From NCBI GenBank assembly GCA_030620115.1, contig JAUXFG010000208.1, forward strand, positions 1 to 5,705: DNA of 5,705 bases. The letters run 5' to 3'. The translations under genes and the position numbers were made by a program. This DNA is from Candidatus Fermentibacterota bacterium. GTDB lineage: Bacteria; JAFGKV01. Positions 1 to 5,705 of the stretch are shown in pieces. A model generated the notes under the pieces. That model saw only the letters and a program-made list of their open reading frames with translations. It was not told the origin of the DNA and made no database searches. Each line of letters opens with the position of its first letter. Position 1 is the first letter of the stretch.

Positions 1-60
1 CCAGATTGACAGATTATAGATTGTCAGATTTCACATTCCTCCCCCATCCCCTCCATCCCC
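1..60. repeat. CAGATT/CACATT low-complexity repeat with C-rich tract
   Basis: CAGATT or a near match recurs at 2, 10, 18 and 25. It is followed by TTCACATT and then a CCCCATCCCCTCCATCCCC tract. The same succession (CAGATT units, CCACATT, C-rich CTCC tract) appears in the same orientation at 5614-5670, so this is a dispersed family and not a chance local bias. The block overlaps the 3' end of the minus-strand elp3 gene: the stop codon (24-26) and roughly the last ten codons lie in it. It is probably non-functional expanding repeat DNA; no hairpin or terminator is evident in it. Confidence 0.75.
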
Positions 61-1712
61 TTCATCATATACCGCGTTCCATCAACATATCCCCGGGCTC
101 GATAGTACTCGCGGGTACCTATGGCTGAAATGACCGCAATGCGCCTGAACCCGGCTTCTCTGGCGATCTGTTCTGCGCGTTCAAGGAGCCGGGTGCCCAG
201 GCCAGCATGCTGCGCGCGGCCCGGGATTTTCGATCCAAGGGCAAGGGCCGGACCATAGACGTGAACTTCACGGATCATGGCAACGCCGTCAATCTCGTCA
301 AACTCTCGAGCCTCCTCAGGAATGGCCGCGTGGGGTAGTGAGAGACGCAGAAAGCCGGCCAGCAGGGCATGGCTTCGGCCCGGACGGATCCCCTTCTCAT
401 CTGCAGACAAAAAATGCTCAGTGGATACGCCTGTCTCATAGGTCAGGTCGTGGAGATGAATCGACGCCGGATCCAACTGCTGCGTGCGAACCTCCCGGCA
501 CCGGATACAAGCACATGCCTTACCCCGCGCGCTCATGAAGGCGTGAATCATCTGCCTGAGATTTGATCGGGTGCATCCTGCCGCAATATCGTGGGCGGGG
601 ATATCCCGCATGACCCGTGTAATCCGGCAGTAGGGCGGAACCATGGTCTTGCATTGTGCAATGAGATCGGTCAGCACATCGTCAGGATAGGGAGAATGCA
701 GGCCACACTTCCAGAGGTCATAGACTTCGGTTCCGGGAAGAATGCAGCATGGATAGATCTTCAGTTCATCAGGGCGGAACGATGGATCGTCCCAGAGCAA
801 AGCGAAATCAGTAAGATCCGACTCGGGAGTGGAGCCCAGGAGGTTGGGCATCCAGTGTGCATGAATCTTGAAACCCGTCGTGCGCAGCAACCTGAATGCC
901 TGTCGCGTTTCCTCAACTCCATGGCCACGCTTGTTCCGCGCAAGAATCTCCTCATTCAGACTCTGGATGCCAATCTGAACCTTAGTGACGCCAAGCTCCC
1001 GCAGCCACGCCAACTCGCCCCAGCTCACACAATCAGGCCTGGTCTCGATTACCATGCCCACATTGCGGCATGCGGCGCGCTCATTCCTGCGTTGTGCCTC
1101 TTCCAGCGTCTCTGACTCCGTCCCGTTCATGCCATCGAGACATCGCCGGATGAACCATTCCTGATACTCAGTCGGATAGCGTGACCATGTGCCGCCAAGA
1201 ACGATGAGTTCGATCTTGTCGGTTCGATGACCAATGCTCCTGAGGGCCCGTATGCGGCGTTCGGTTTGCAGAAATGGGTCGAAGTCAAGCTGTGCCGCGC
1301 GGCGAGCGCCCGGCTCGTTGGGCAGATACGATGTGGGCATAATACCAGGGAGGTCGGGGCAGAAGGCACAGGTACCTGTGCAAGGAAATGGTTTCGTCAA
1401 AACAGCCACTGGGGTCACGCCCGATACCGTTCGCGTCGGCTTGAGCTGGAGCAGTTTTTCGACGGCCGGCATGGGCTGTATTTCCCCACGGGCCAATAAC
1501 TCTCGGTAGCCTTTCAGGACCTGGGTCTTGGTAAAACGACCCTTGCCATGTCGTCGTATCACCCTATTGGTTTGGTCCGCGGTACTGTTTTCGAGTAGAG
1601 AAAGGCGCCCAAGGATCTCCAGGAGATCCGGCCTGCACTCATCCAAGTCGACCCGCTCCATGTGGGTCGCCAACCACCGTGCGTGTTGCGCGTCTTCCAC
1701 TTCAGTTGTCAT
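24..1712 (-). CDS. elp3: Elp3-type tRNA U34 carboxymethylation enzyme (radical SAM/GNAT)
   Basis: Predicted 562-residue Elp3. The family uses a radical SAM domain and acetyl-CoA to place a carboxymethyl group on C5 of wobble uridine 34 in tRNA; bacterial and archaeal Elp3 work without the other Elongator subunits. Visible parts in order: N-terminal helical tRNA-binding region (about 20-100) leading into SGVTPVAVLTKPFPC; iron-sulfur cysteines C111, C115, C118 (CX3CX2C); SYLPNEPGARRA (128-139); LGGTWSRYPTEYQEWF (172-187); IETRPD (222-227); QIGIQS and RGHGVEET (247-269); DELKIYP and RDIPAH (315-374); CACIRCREV (400-408); and a GNAT domain from about 480 with QHAGLGTRLLERAE (501-514) for acetyl-CoA and AVISAIGTREYYRARGY (526-542). 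The start ATG (1710-1712) lacks a strong Shine-Dalgarno site, so a nearby GTG (codon 5) or ATG (codon 18) is possible. Family members usually end soon after the YMxK motif; here about ten extra residues (GMEGMGEECEI) come from the edge repeat. Family call very secure. Confidence 0.97.
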   Translation of the reverse strand: MTTEVEDAQHARWLATHMERVDLDECRPDLLEILGRLSLLENSTADQTNRVIRRHGKGRFTKTQVLKGYRELLARGEIQPMPAVEKLLQLKPTRTVSGVTPVAVLTKPFPCTGTCAFCPDLPGIMPTSYLPNEPGARRAAQLDFDPFLQTERRIRALRSIGHRTDKIELIVLGGTWSRYPTEYQEWFIRRCLDGMNGTESETLEEAQRRNERAACRNVGMVIETRPDCVSWGELAWLRELGVTKVQIGIQSLNEEILARNKRGHGVEETRQAFRLLRTTGFKIHAHWMPNLLGSTPESDLTDFALLWDDPSFRPDELKIYPCCILPGTEVYDLWKCGLHSPYPDDVLTDLIAQCKTMVPPYCRITRVMRDIPAHDIAAGCTRSNLRQMIHAFMSARGKACACIRCREVRTQQLDPASIHLHDLTYETGVSTEHFLSADEKGIRPGRSHALLAGFLRLSLPHAAIPEEAREFDEIDGVAMIREVHVYGPALALGSKIPGRAQHAGLGTRLLERAEQIAREAGFRRIAVISAIGTREYYRARGYVDGTRYMMKGMEGMGEECEI

Positions 1713-2572: not shown

Positions 2573-2721
2573 TCGACTGGGGCCGGTATTCTTCTTGCAT
2601 AAACTCGACTTGACTCACGAAGGATGGAAGCCCCGCAAACCGTTCTGACACAGCGCGAAGGAATCAGAGGGAAAAGGGGATGTCTCAGGACAGGCCGGGA
2701 AGTGCTTCACACTCTCGGAAC

Positions 2722-2736
2722 CCTCCTCGCAATGAC
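2722..2736 (+). repeat. Solo right-end fragment of the GTCATCGCGAG hairpin element
   Basis: The 15 bases CCTCCTCGCAATGAC are identical to the right terminus of the complete element at 2810-2824. No matching left arm is seen just upstream, so this looks like a truncated or decayed copy. It lies 14 bp before the first complete copy. Confidence 0.55.
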
Positions 2737-2750
2737 TCAGGCCCGGGGGG

Positions 2751-2824
2751 GTCATCGCGAGCAACAGCGCGGCGATCTCAATGGGCGGATGAGATTGCTT
2801 CGTCGCTGGCCTCCTCGCAATGAC
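2751..2824 (+). repeat. Hairpin-forming interspersed repeat, copy 1
   Basis: The left arm (2751-2780) begins GTCATCGCGAG and ends GCGATCTCA. The right arm (2790-2824) begins TGAGATTGCTTCGTCG and ends CTCGCAATGAC. The arms are imperfectly inverted, so the element can fold into a hairpin with a nine-base loop. It resembles REP/BIME- or MITE-like dispersed repeats of the GTCATTGCGAG...GAAGCAATCTC kind seen in many genomes. Function is unknown; transcript stabilisation or passive mobility by a transposase in trans are both possible. Confidence 0.8.
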
Positions 2825-2838
2825 AGGTGGAGGAGCTG

Positions 2839-2936
2839 GTCATCGCGAGCGATAGCGCGGCGATCTCAGTTGAGAGCAGGTGAGATTGCTTCGTCGCGGA
2901 CTCTATCCTGAGCTTGTGGAAGGGCTCCTCGCAATG
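2839..2936 (+). repeat. Hairpin-forming interspersed repeat, copy 2, interrupted
   Basis: The left arm (2839-2868) matches copy 1 at 28 of 30 positions. The right arm starts TGAGATTGCTTCGTCGC at 2881 and its terminus CCTCGCAATG lies at 2927-2936. Between them is an extra stretch containing TCCTGAGCTTGTGGAAGGG (about 2906-2924), which belongs to a different common repeat type (TCCTGAGCTTGTCGAAGG). Copy 2 is therefore longer than copy 1 and looks like a composite of two families. Confidence 0.75.
2904..2926 (+). repeat. Nested CTGAGCTTGTGGAAGG repeat inside copy 2
   Basis: About 23 bp absent from the corresponding place in copy 1. The core CCTGAGCTTGTGGAAGGG differs by one base from the CCTGAGCTTGTCGAAGGG motif I know as a frequent dispersed bacterial repeat. 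It interrupts the right arm of the hairpin element, which makes the arm asymmetric. The exact boundaries are uncertain because the flanking arm sequences are themselves variable. Confidence 0.5.
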
Positions 2937-3028
2937 GATAGCCCGGATTTCTCACCTGGTTTCGTCGCGAGAGGGTCGAGATGATTGTGGCCGCGAGGCT
3001 TGCGACCGAGGACCCCGCAGGCGTATTC

Positions 3029-3052
3029 GCTGTCCGCCAGCTGGCGGACAGC
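3029..3052. repeat. Perfect 24-bp palindrome
   Basis: Half-site GCTGTCCGCCAG is followed directly by its exact reverse complement CTGGCGGACAGC, with no spacer. The symmetry breaks at the next base on each side. Such GC-rich palindromes occur as dispersed repeats in some candidate-phylum genomes. No T run follows, so it does not look like a standard terminator. An operator for a dimeric regulator is possible but unsupported. Confidence 0.8.
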
Positions 3053-3102
3053 AGACACTAGCATTGATCGTAAAACGAGAGAATGAAACGTCCCGGAAAA
3101 AG

Positions 3103-4430: not shown

Positions 4431-4508
4431 GCCCACGCCATCCGCACGCCCCTGGCCATCAGCTATCACTTATCAGCTCCTTCTTCCCTCCCTATCCAGA
4501 TTCTTCCT

Positions 4509-4536
4509 CCGTCATCTGAACGCTGAACACTGAATA
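4509..4536 (+). repeat. CCGTCATCTGAACGCTGAACACTGAA block 1
   Basis: CCGTCATCT is followed by GAACGCTGAACACTGAATAC, an eight-base-type tandem of CTGAACRC. The block at 4674-4710 repeats the same lead and the same CTGAAC units in a different order. It is preceded at 4498-4506 by AGATTCTTC, the end motif of the TGTCATTCTGAG family. Confidence 0.65.
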
Positions 4537-4558
4537 CTTGCTCCTCCCAGCCCCGCCC

Positions 4559-4592
4559 AGATTCTTCAGTCGCCCGCTCCCTCAGAATGACA
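4559..4592 (-). repeat. TGTCATTCTGAG...GAAGAATCT repeat, copy C (inverted)
   Basis: On the minus strand this reads TGTCATTCTGAG, then a variable middle GGAGCGGGCGACT, then GAAGAATCT (34 bp). It lies 30 bp from copy B in the opposite orientation, so the two could pair into a long stem through their conserved ends. Confidence 0.8.
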
Positions 4593-4622
4593 CGGCTCTT
4601 CACATCCAATGCCAACCACCCT

Positions 4623-4657
4623 TGTCATTCTGAGCGACCCCAAGGAGCGAAGAATCT
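4623..4657 (+). repeat. TGTCATTCTGAG...GAAGAATCT repeat, copy B
   Basis: 35 bp with the same conserved ends as copies A and C and its own middle, CGACCCCAAGGAGC. The constant ends and variable centre suggest a family that diverges or recombines internally. I recognise the TGTCATTCTGAGCG...GAAGAATCT motif as a dispersed repeat reported widely in bacterial drafts. Confidence 0.8.
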
Positions 4658-4673
4658 TTCCTACACCCTGTTT

Positions 4674-4710
4674 CCGTCATCTAAACACTGAACGCTGAAC
4701 CCTGAACCCT
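4674..4710 (+). repeat. CCGTCATCTAAACACTGAACGCTGAACCCTGAACCCT block 2
   Basis: Starts with the same CCGTCATCT lead as block 1, followed by AACACTGAACGCTGAACC and CTGAACCCT. Units of CTGAAC plus a two-base variable part recur four times. Finding the lead sequence together with the tandem units twice in about 200 bp shows a modular repeat and not simple drift. Confidence 0.65.
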
Positions 4711-4821
4711 CTCCTCCTACCCCTGGACATGCTTCTCTGCCCCGATAGCTTGTATTGAGCAAAATAGAAAAACACTGGCCAAAGAACACAGCGCTCAACC
4801 AGAATAGAACCCGAGGTAATC

Positions 4822-5705
4822 ATGAGGATTGTTCACGTAGTCGGGGCACGGCCCAACTTCATGAAGATGGCGCCGGTCATGGCGGCGTTGTCAGAGAAAG
4901 ACGGCGTTTCCCAGAAGCTGGTGCATACGGGACAGCACTACGACGCCAACATGTCCGAGCTCTTCTTCGATGAGCTGGAACTTCCCGAGCCGGATCTCAA
5001 TCTCCAGGTGGGTTCCGGCGCCCACGGCGCGCAGACCGCCCAGATCATGATCCGTTTCGAGGAAATCATGCTGGCTGATCGCCCCGATCTCGTACTCGTC
5101 TACGGCGACGTCAATTCCACGGTGGCCGCCGCACTGGTGTGTGCGAAACTTCTCATCCCCGTGGGTCACGTAGAGGCCGGCTTGCGTTCCCTTGATCGAA
5201 CCATGCCGGAGGAAATCAACCGGCTCCTCACCGATCAGATTGCGGACTTCCTTTTTACACCATCTGCTGATGCTGACAGGAACCTCCTTCAGGAAGGTAT
5301 TTCGCGCGATCGGATCCATTTGGTCGGCAATGCCATGATCGACACGTTGGTGCGCCTCCTACCCCGGGCCATGGAGCGTTGGGAGCATGAGACCTTCGAA
5401 CCCTGGCACAATCGGCCCTATGTCCTGGTGACTCTCCACCGCCCATCAAGCGTGGACGAGCCCGACATGTTGGGCAAGCTCATGTCTGCGCTTTGTGAGA
5501 TCAGCCAAGAGATCCCTGTGATCTTCCCCGTCCACCCCCGCACCCGACAACGTCTCTCCGACCAATCCCGCATTCCCGCAATCCCGCAATCCCGCAATTC
5601 CTCCCCCTTCCCCCAGATTACAGATTCCACATTGTCAGATTCCACATTGTCCCCCCTCCATTCCCTCAATCCCTCCTCACATTCGACGTTGGATGTTGGA
5701 TGTTC
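4822..5705 (+). CDS. wecB: UDP-N-acetylglucosamine 2-epimerase (non-hydrolysing), partial at window end, with repeat insert
   Basis: WecB interconverts UDP-GlcNAc and UDP-ManNAc in the cytoplasm, feeding ManNAc-containing surface polysaccharide. ATG 4822 has GAGG at 4813-4816. Residues 1-246 match the family closely: VVGARPNFMKMAPV (6-19) with Arg10 and Lys15; TGQHYD (36-41); LVYGDVNST (92-100) with Asp96; VGHVEAGLRS (114-123) with Glu118; MPEEINR (128-134) with Glu131; VGNAMIDTL (168-176); LVTLHR (202-207) with His206; and FPVHPRTRQRL (235-245). In the family this last motif is followed by a strand and LGYLDFL, then a TDSGGIQEE motif. Here residues from about 248 to 294 are instead a Ser/Pro/Thr-rich stretch encoded by tandem repeats, including DSTLS twice, with no stop before the window edge. 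So the gene carries an in-frame insert, or is broken just beyond the window. Family call secure; intactness unknown. Confidence 0.93.
   Translation, partial: MRIVHVVGARPNFMKMAPVMAALSEKDGVSQKLVHTGQHYDANMSELFFDELELPEPDLNLQVGSGAHGAQTAQIMIRFEEIMLADRPDLVLVYGDVNSTVAAALVCAKLLIPVGHVEAGLRSLDRTMPEEINRLLTDQIADFLFTPSADADRNLLQEGISRDRIHLVGNAMIDTLVRLLPRAMERWEHETFEPWHNRPYVLVTLHRPSSVDEPDMLGKLMSALCEISQEIPVIFPVHPRTRQRLSDQSRIPAIPQSRNSSPFPQITDSTLSDSTLSPLHSLNPSSHSTLDVGC
5564..5595 (+). repeat. Tandem AATCCCGC octamer, four units
   Basis: Units begin at 5564, 5572, 5580 and 5588; the second carries one change (ATTCCCGC), and a partial fifth (AATTCC) follows. The array lies inside the wecB reading frame, directly after the codons for HPRTRQRLSDQ. 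Because eight is not a multiple of three, each unit is read in a different phase, yet no stop arises. Confidence 0.85.
5611..5705 (+). repeat. CAGATT/CACATT repeat plus C-rich tract and GTTGGAT units, inside wecB
   Basis: Two exact tandem copies of the 15-mer CAGATTCCACATTGT (5621-5635 and 5636-5650) encode DSTLS twice in the wecB frame. A C-rich tract (CCCCCCTCCATTCCCTCAATCC) and two GTTGGAT heptamers (5688-5694 and 5695-5701) follow, and the repeat runs past the window edge. The first half is clearly related to the block at 1-60, in the same orientation. Confidence 0.8.

Follow-up and report, generated by a model that had tools for sequence, protein, structure and literature searches.

A dispersed, non-palindromic tandem repeat reaching into the wecB gene of a Candidatus Fermentibacterota bacterium, probably as an in-frame insertion in an exposed loop

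The wecB gene at the end of a contig of Candidatus Fermentibacterota bacterium runs directly into an array of short tandem repeats, and this array is one copy of a genome-wide, mosaic, non-palindromic intergenic repeat strongly depleted within genes. The best reading of the arrangement, held at a probability of roughly 60%, is that the repeat has been inserted in frame into wecB and that the C-terminal third of the gene continues past the contig end. The DNA analysed (the window) is 5,705 nt long and represents one complete contig (G000:C106; JAUXFG010000208.1). It comes from a metagenome-bin-like, 98%-complete genome (G000) of 4.1 Mb in 296 contigs, for which the genome collection held only two relatives of the same family, G001 and G002. 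The window carries genes for an ELP3-type radical-SAM/GNAT protein (ORF 24–1712, minus strand, matched by the ELP3 model to position 520 of 522), a methyltransferase, a DUF5723 protein, and wecB.

What is present of wecB is the 5' two thirds of a gene for a non-hydrolysing UDP-GlcNAc 2-epimerase (4822–5562, plus strand), specifying residues 1–247 and ending in HPRTRQRLS. Its product scores 240 bits against TIGR00236 (cut-off 210), but only over model positions 1–247 of 366 because the contig ends, and it matches Pfam Epimerase_2 (PF02350) over positions 2–235 of 347; after these matches, the rest of the ORF has no domain match. The ORF (4822–5703) is without a stop up to the contig end and, from codon 248, right after HPRTRQRL, enters 47 repeat codons in frame, as the initial annotation had stated. 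Coding character changes at the same place, the hexamer scores of 20-codon blocks in the wecB frame being positive without exception to 5541, beyond which they are -8.0, -6.2 and -4.1. The open frame is weak evidence, since all three forward frames of 5564–5705 are open, as are about 31% of the forward frames (and 12.5% of the reverse frames) in 40 other repeat copies over a stretch of equal length, and it was rejected as support for insertion.

The repeat copy in wecB (5564–5705, plus strand; in-frame reading DQSRIPAIPQSRNSSPFPQITDSTLSDSTLSPLHSLNPSSHSTLDVGC) is a mosaic of the GTTGGATGTTC type, ended by the contig edge. From the left, it comprises module A, an array of about 4.5 copies of the octamer CAATCCCG (5563–5602, with TRF delimiting the octamers at 5563–5598; families D1/D2); module B, CAGATTACAGATTCCACATTGT (5614–5650), which is found in most other copies and includes a perfect duplication of the 15-mer CAGATTCCACATTGT (about 5621–5651), read as DSTLS DSTLS; and module C, CACATTCGACGTTGGATGTTGGATGTTC (5678–5705), with GTTGGAT units at 5688–5704. 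C-rich tracts are also present, and one example of the predicted peptide within the insert is NSSPFPQITDSTLSDSTLSPLHSLNPSSHSTLDVGC. The position of the array, its octamers, the 15-mer duplication and the GTTGGAT units had all been described from the window sequence, and each was confirmed by TRF and by other copies aligning in register. In aligned copies, the modules usually follow one another as A (AATCCCGC), B (CAGATT...ACATTGT) and C (GTTGGAT), with other modules joining in mosaics, and elsewhere module C frequently precedes AATCC and additional modules. No inverted repeats were found in the window copy (5500–5705), and terminal inverted repeats, a trait of MITEs, were also absent from that range, the far end of the element lying beyond the window. 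Of the junctions at which a target-site duplication, another MITE trait, would show, the window contains one. The copy folds no better than shuffled sequences (z = +0.44) and so, with neither inverted repeats nor unusual folding, is not a palindromic, hairpin-forming element of the Rickettsia (RPE) kind. No Rfam family reached its gathering score in the window.

The array had been proposed to be an expanding element particular to this gene, a view that does not survive comparison with the rest of the genome. It has about 40 further significant matches within G000, and 44 of its 53 places in the first 823 kb are intergenic, making it a multicopy, mainly intergenic, dispersed short tandem repeat. 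Across a 1.25-Mb sample (stretches making up 31% of the genome), multicopy repeats cover 32% of intergenic bases versus 0.28% of coding bases, a ratio not to be over-read because the repeat mask was built on matches to intergenic pieces and the coding depletion is partly built in. At such a low coding coverage, in-frame inserts are rare. Within the window, a copy of the dispersed repeat lies at the opposite contig end (1–64, plus strand; detected by blast and the repeat mask), where it extends over the final codons of the ELP3 ORF. The mask also revealed a block of other repeat families between the methyltransferase and DUF5723 genes (2671–3064), which matches at least three other intergenic pieces and occurs at 64 places in 823 kb, and a block upstream of wecB (4489–4742) that contains CTGAACA-type heptamers and a CATTCTGAGCGAC...GAAGAATC module and occurs at 78 places in 823 kb. 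A further dispersed element, CCCAGATTCTTCGGTCGCTCCGCTCCCTCAGAATGAC ... GTCATTCTGAGCGACTCCAAGGAGCGAAGAATCTC, is found in the latter block and at many other loci, frequently adjoining tandem modules; its CCCAGATTCTTCGGTCGCTCCGCTCCCTCAGAATGAC and GTCATTCTGAGCGACTCCAAGGAGCGAAGAATCTC parts are near inverted copies of each other.

The suggestion that the repeat sits in a loop able to tolerate inserts gained support from 72 wecB homologs, in which inserts of at least four residues concentrate at two main sites. One of these hot spots, after residue 250 of the homolog L012, corresponds to window residues 248–252, where the repeat begins. Nearly all homologs have 35–44 residues between HPRT and TDSGG, and a single one has 47, with longer spacings in G002 (57), G001 (60) and an Armatimonadetes MAG (72). 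The last of these, a complete gene (L021, 241–1431 of JACQGM010000289.1), has an in-frame insert of 34 residues at the post-HPRT loop, and the insert contains TTCACCC heptamers that are found at 13 other places in its own genome; the loop of G046, a relative with 70% identity, is normal and lacks the insert. In an AlphaFold2 model of L021 (pLDDT 91.2, pTM 0.90), low order is confined to about residues 250–289, the loop between helix 241–249 and strand 293–296, so the fold is predicted to be intact and the insert alone disordered. Inserts at this loop are unrelated in sequence across lineages.

The wecB genes of the two family relatives have about 20 extra residues in the post-HPRT loop. Both genes (L116:3–716 in G001 and L117:159–1424 in G002) carry long, mutually different extra segments at the two hot spots, i.e., at residue about 189 and after HPRT. 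A repeat origin of these inserts is not provable; for the residue-189 insert of G002, neither G001 nor G002 contains a further copy. The wecB genes of G043 and G048, each split over two contigs, were discarded as parallels, as both breaks occur at TDSGGIQEE, outside the loop.

Repeats inside genes were also sought elsewhere in G000. Dips in coding score were too unspecific by themselves (157 candidates), and segments were therefore required to match at least two intergenic pieces, which left five segments in four of 865 genes; a reversed-sequence control over all called genes gave no matches. The clearest case of an in-frame repeat insert is a DegT/PseC-like aminotransferase (L124; G000:C218, 5324–6661). 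Its insert of about 50 residues includes NSELRIENSTL, derived from the intergenic AATTCAGAATTAAGAATTG repeat, and is missing from a 54%-identical G002 ortholog and from six paralogs. Both halves of PF01041 are present, and conserved sequence resumes in frame past the repeat, as it also does in the wecB of L021. The C-terminus of the aminotransferase (NVESGNL) likewise ends in repeat, and a match to a DegT paralog at G000:C203:3693–4271 contains a single in-frame TGA. A thioredoxin-reductase-like gene (L153; G000:C17, 9163–10107) contains the 28-nt module TAGCCCGGACTTCTCACC(A)..., at which it has eight extra residues compared with its G001 ortholog, and the same module is read in another frame in a second gene (L246; G000:C164, 2–1426), so that insertion appears to occur at the DNA level, the encoded peptide being incidental. 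L153 also holds a palindromic module, CGAATCCCGCGAACTGCGCGGGATTCG, and a thioredoxin-reductase-like match in G001 (L212, contig C34) has a single in-frame TGA. The fourth gene, L125, scores like ordinary coding sequence and was discounted.

Under the favoured interpretation, a copy of the dispersed mosaic repeat would have entered wecB at the DNA level, in the loop between the post-HPRT helix and the strand preceding LGYLDFL. Since the inserted codons contain no stop and the loop is exposed, they are probably translated, giving a disordered loop 47 or more residues long. The C-terminal third would then follow in frame past the contig end, and the resulting epimerase would be functional. Slippage could lengthen arrays of this kind, and template switching or illegitimate recombination could carry them to new sites, with copies in gene cores being purged and survivors persisting at gene ends and, if the frame is kept, in exposed loops.

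A different outcome, in which wecB was cut short by the repeat itself, or by repeat-to-repeat deletion or recombination, and is now a pseudogene or encodes a short protein with the repeat at its end, is unlikely but has some observations in its favour. The initial annotation had advised looking for the missing C-terminal motifs, and this could be done within the same genome, where neither the family profile nor the C-terminal protein of G001 used as query found the C-terminal third in the bin; a second wecB is also absent from it. Moreover, repeats are common at the 3' ends of called genes (16 of the 32 gene-overlapping segments), where they can supply a stop. Against truncation, the genes with 3' repeats and clear Pfam matches (a GATase_5 amidotransferase, PurH, a sigma-54 activator and a methyltransferase) have complete domains, the N-terminal part of wecB is undecayed, and a break at a random place would have only about a 2–3% chance of landing within some four codons of the hot spot, as calculated over 358 inter-residue positions. 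The missing third is an assembly gap rather than a refutation of in-frame insertion. The two shortest contigs encountered in the bin measure 1772 and 1821 bp, so a short fragment flanked by two repeats would likely stay unbinned. An RNase D-like gene, which lies 3' of wecB in G001, was not found in the bin, and this agrees with a gap but weakly so, because that search was made without a positive control.

It is improbable that the junction is an assembly artefact, in which unrelated places were fused at or inside the repeat and the true wecB has no insert. Repeats certainly break this assembly: of 198 contig ends, 78 (39%) have repeat within their final 100 nt, versus 9.5% of random 100-nt windows, and the wecB array does reach the contig end, which terminates inside it; given these frequencies, a break within the wecB repeat is ordinary. 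However, when the terminal region is compared with other sampled stretches of the genome, the longest exact matches measure 25 and 35 nt (the last 35 nt of the window recur exactly in contig C160), lengths that are short for assembler joining, and they lie away from the junction. The junction itself, at about 5556–5564, coincides with a natural insertion site. A reading in which the insert is no passenger but was selected as a functional domain or a regulatory loop is very improbable: the same wecB loop has been lengthened in several lineages, but by unrelated sequences, one repeat module is read in two frames in two genes, and the window insert has a non-coding hexamer usage.

Several bacterial systems are known to carry repeats inside genes, but the non-palindromic repeat of G000 is new. 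A likeness in principle to the palindromic elements of Rickettsia, with unrelated sequence, had been pointed out at the outset and can be upheld with the addition that the window repeat is also non-palindromic. In the account of those elements available through PMC2229807 (Ogata 2000), they are dispersed between genes, as is the G000 repeat, and also occur in frame inside conserved protein genes, but they are palindromic with terminal inverted repeats, whereas the window repeat is without inverted repeats. MITEs of the ERIC/RU type are small intergenic repeats whose open frames can be fused in frame to genes, and such fusions have been proposed as a source of new peptides (PMC2759123, PMC2229807); they have terminal inverted repeats and defined sizes, in contrast to the variable mosaics of tandem octamer, 15-mer and heptamer modules in G000. 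Closer in build are the repeats of Geobacter and the Beggiatoaceae. The heptanucleotide elements of Geobacter metallireducens are tandem heptamers found in 49 copies between and within genes (PMC2700814), but have a fixed architecture (GGGACCG x4) and a different sequence. The TAACTGA direct repeats of marine Beggiatoaceae are, like the G000 repeat, short tandem repeats that are mostly intergenic, and are sometimes found at gene ends or within ORFs (PMC4679880). They consist of a single heptamer and affect mostly the protein periphery and the regions upstream of start codons, while the repeat in the wecB of G000 combines several units and occupies a loop within a conserved enzyme domain. A literature search on the exact phenomenon yielded nothing useful. 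What sets the present example apart is that the loop lies inside a conserved enzyme, and that the same loop has been hit again in another phylum, by an unrelated repeat.

In-frame selfish or passive repeats in conserved proteins have been documented mainly for palindromic elements and in a few well-studied bacteria. An uncultured lineage rich in tandem-repeat mosaics now adds a probable case, in wecB, and a clear one, in the aminotransferase. Pairs of homologs with and without the insert allow one to ask to what extent enzymes tolerate foreign, low-complexity peptide, and there is also a practical caution, as genes that look truncated at a contig end in such genomes may conceal an insert and need not be pseudogenes. 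It could be speculated, tentatively, that intergenic non-palindromic tandem repeats continually supply new enzyme loops, and that unrelated repeats have entered the same wecB loop in frame and independently in unrelated phyla. If so, the wecB loop would act as a natural trap, and repeat-derived protein segments could be followed there from their birth through their ageing.
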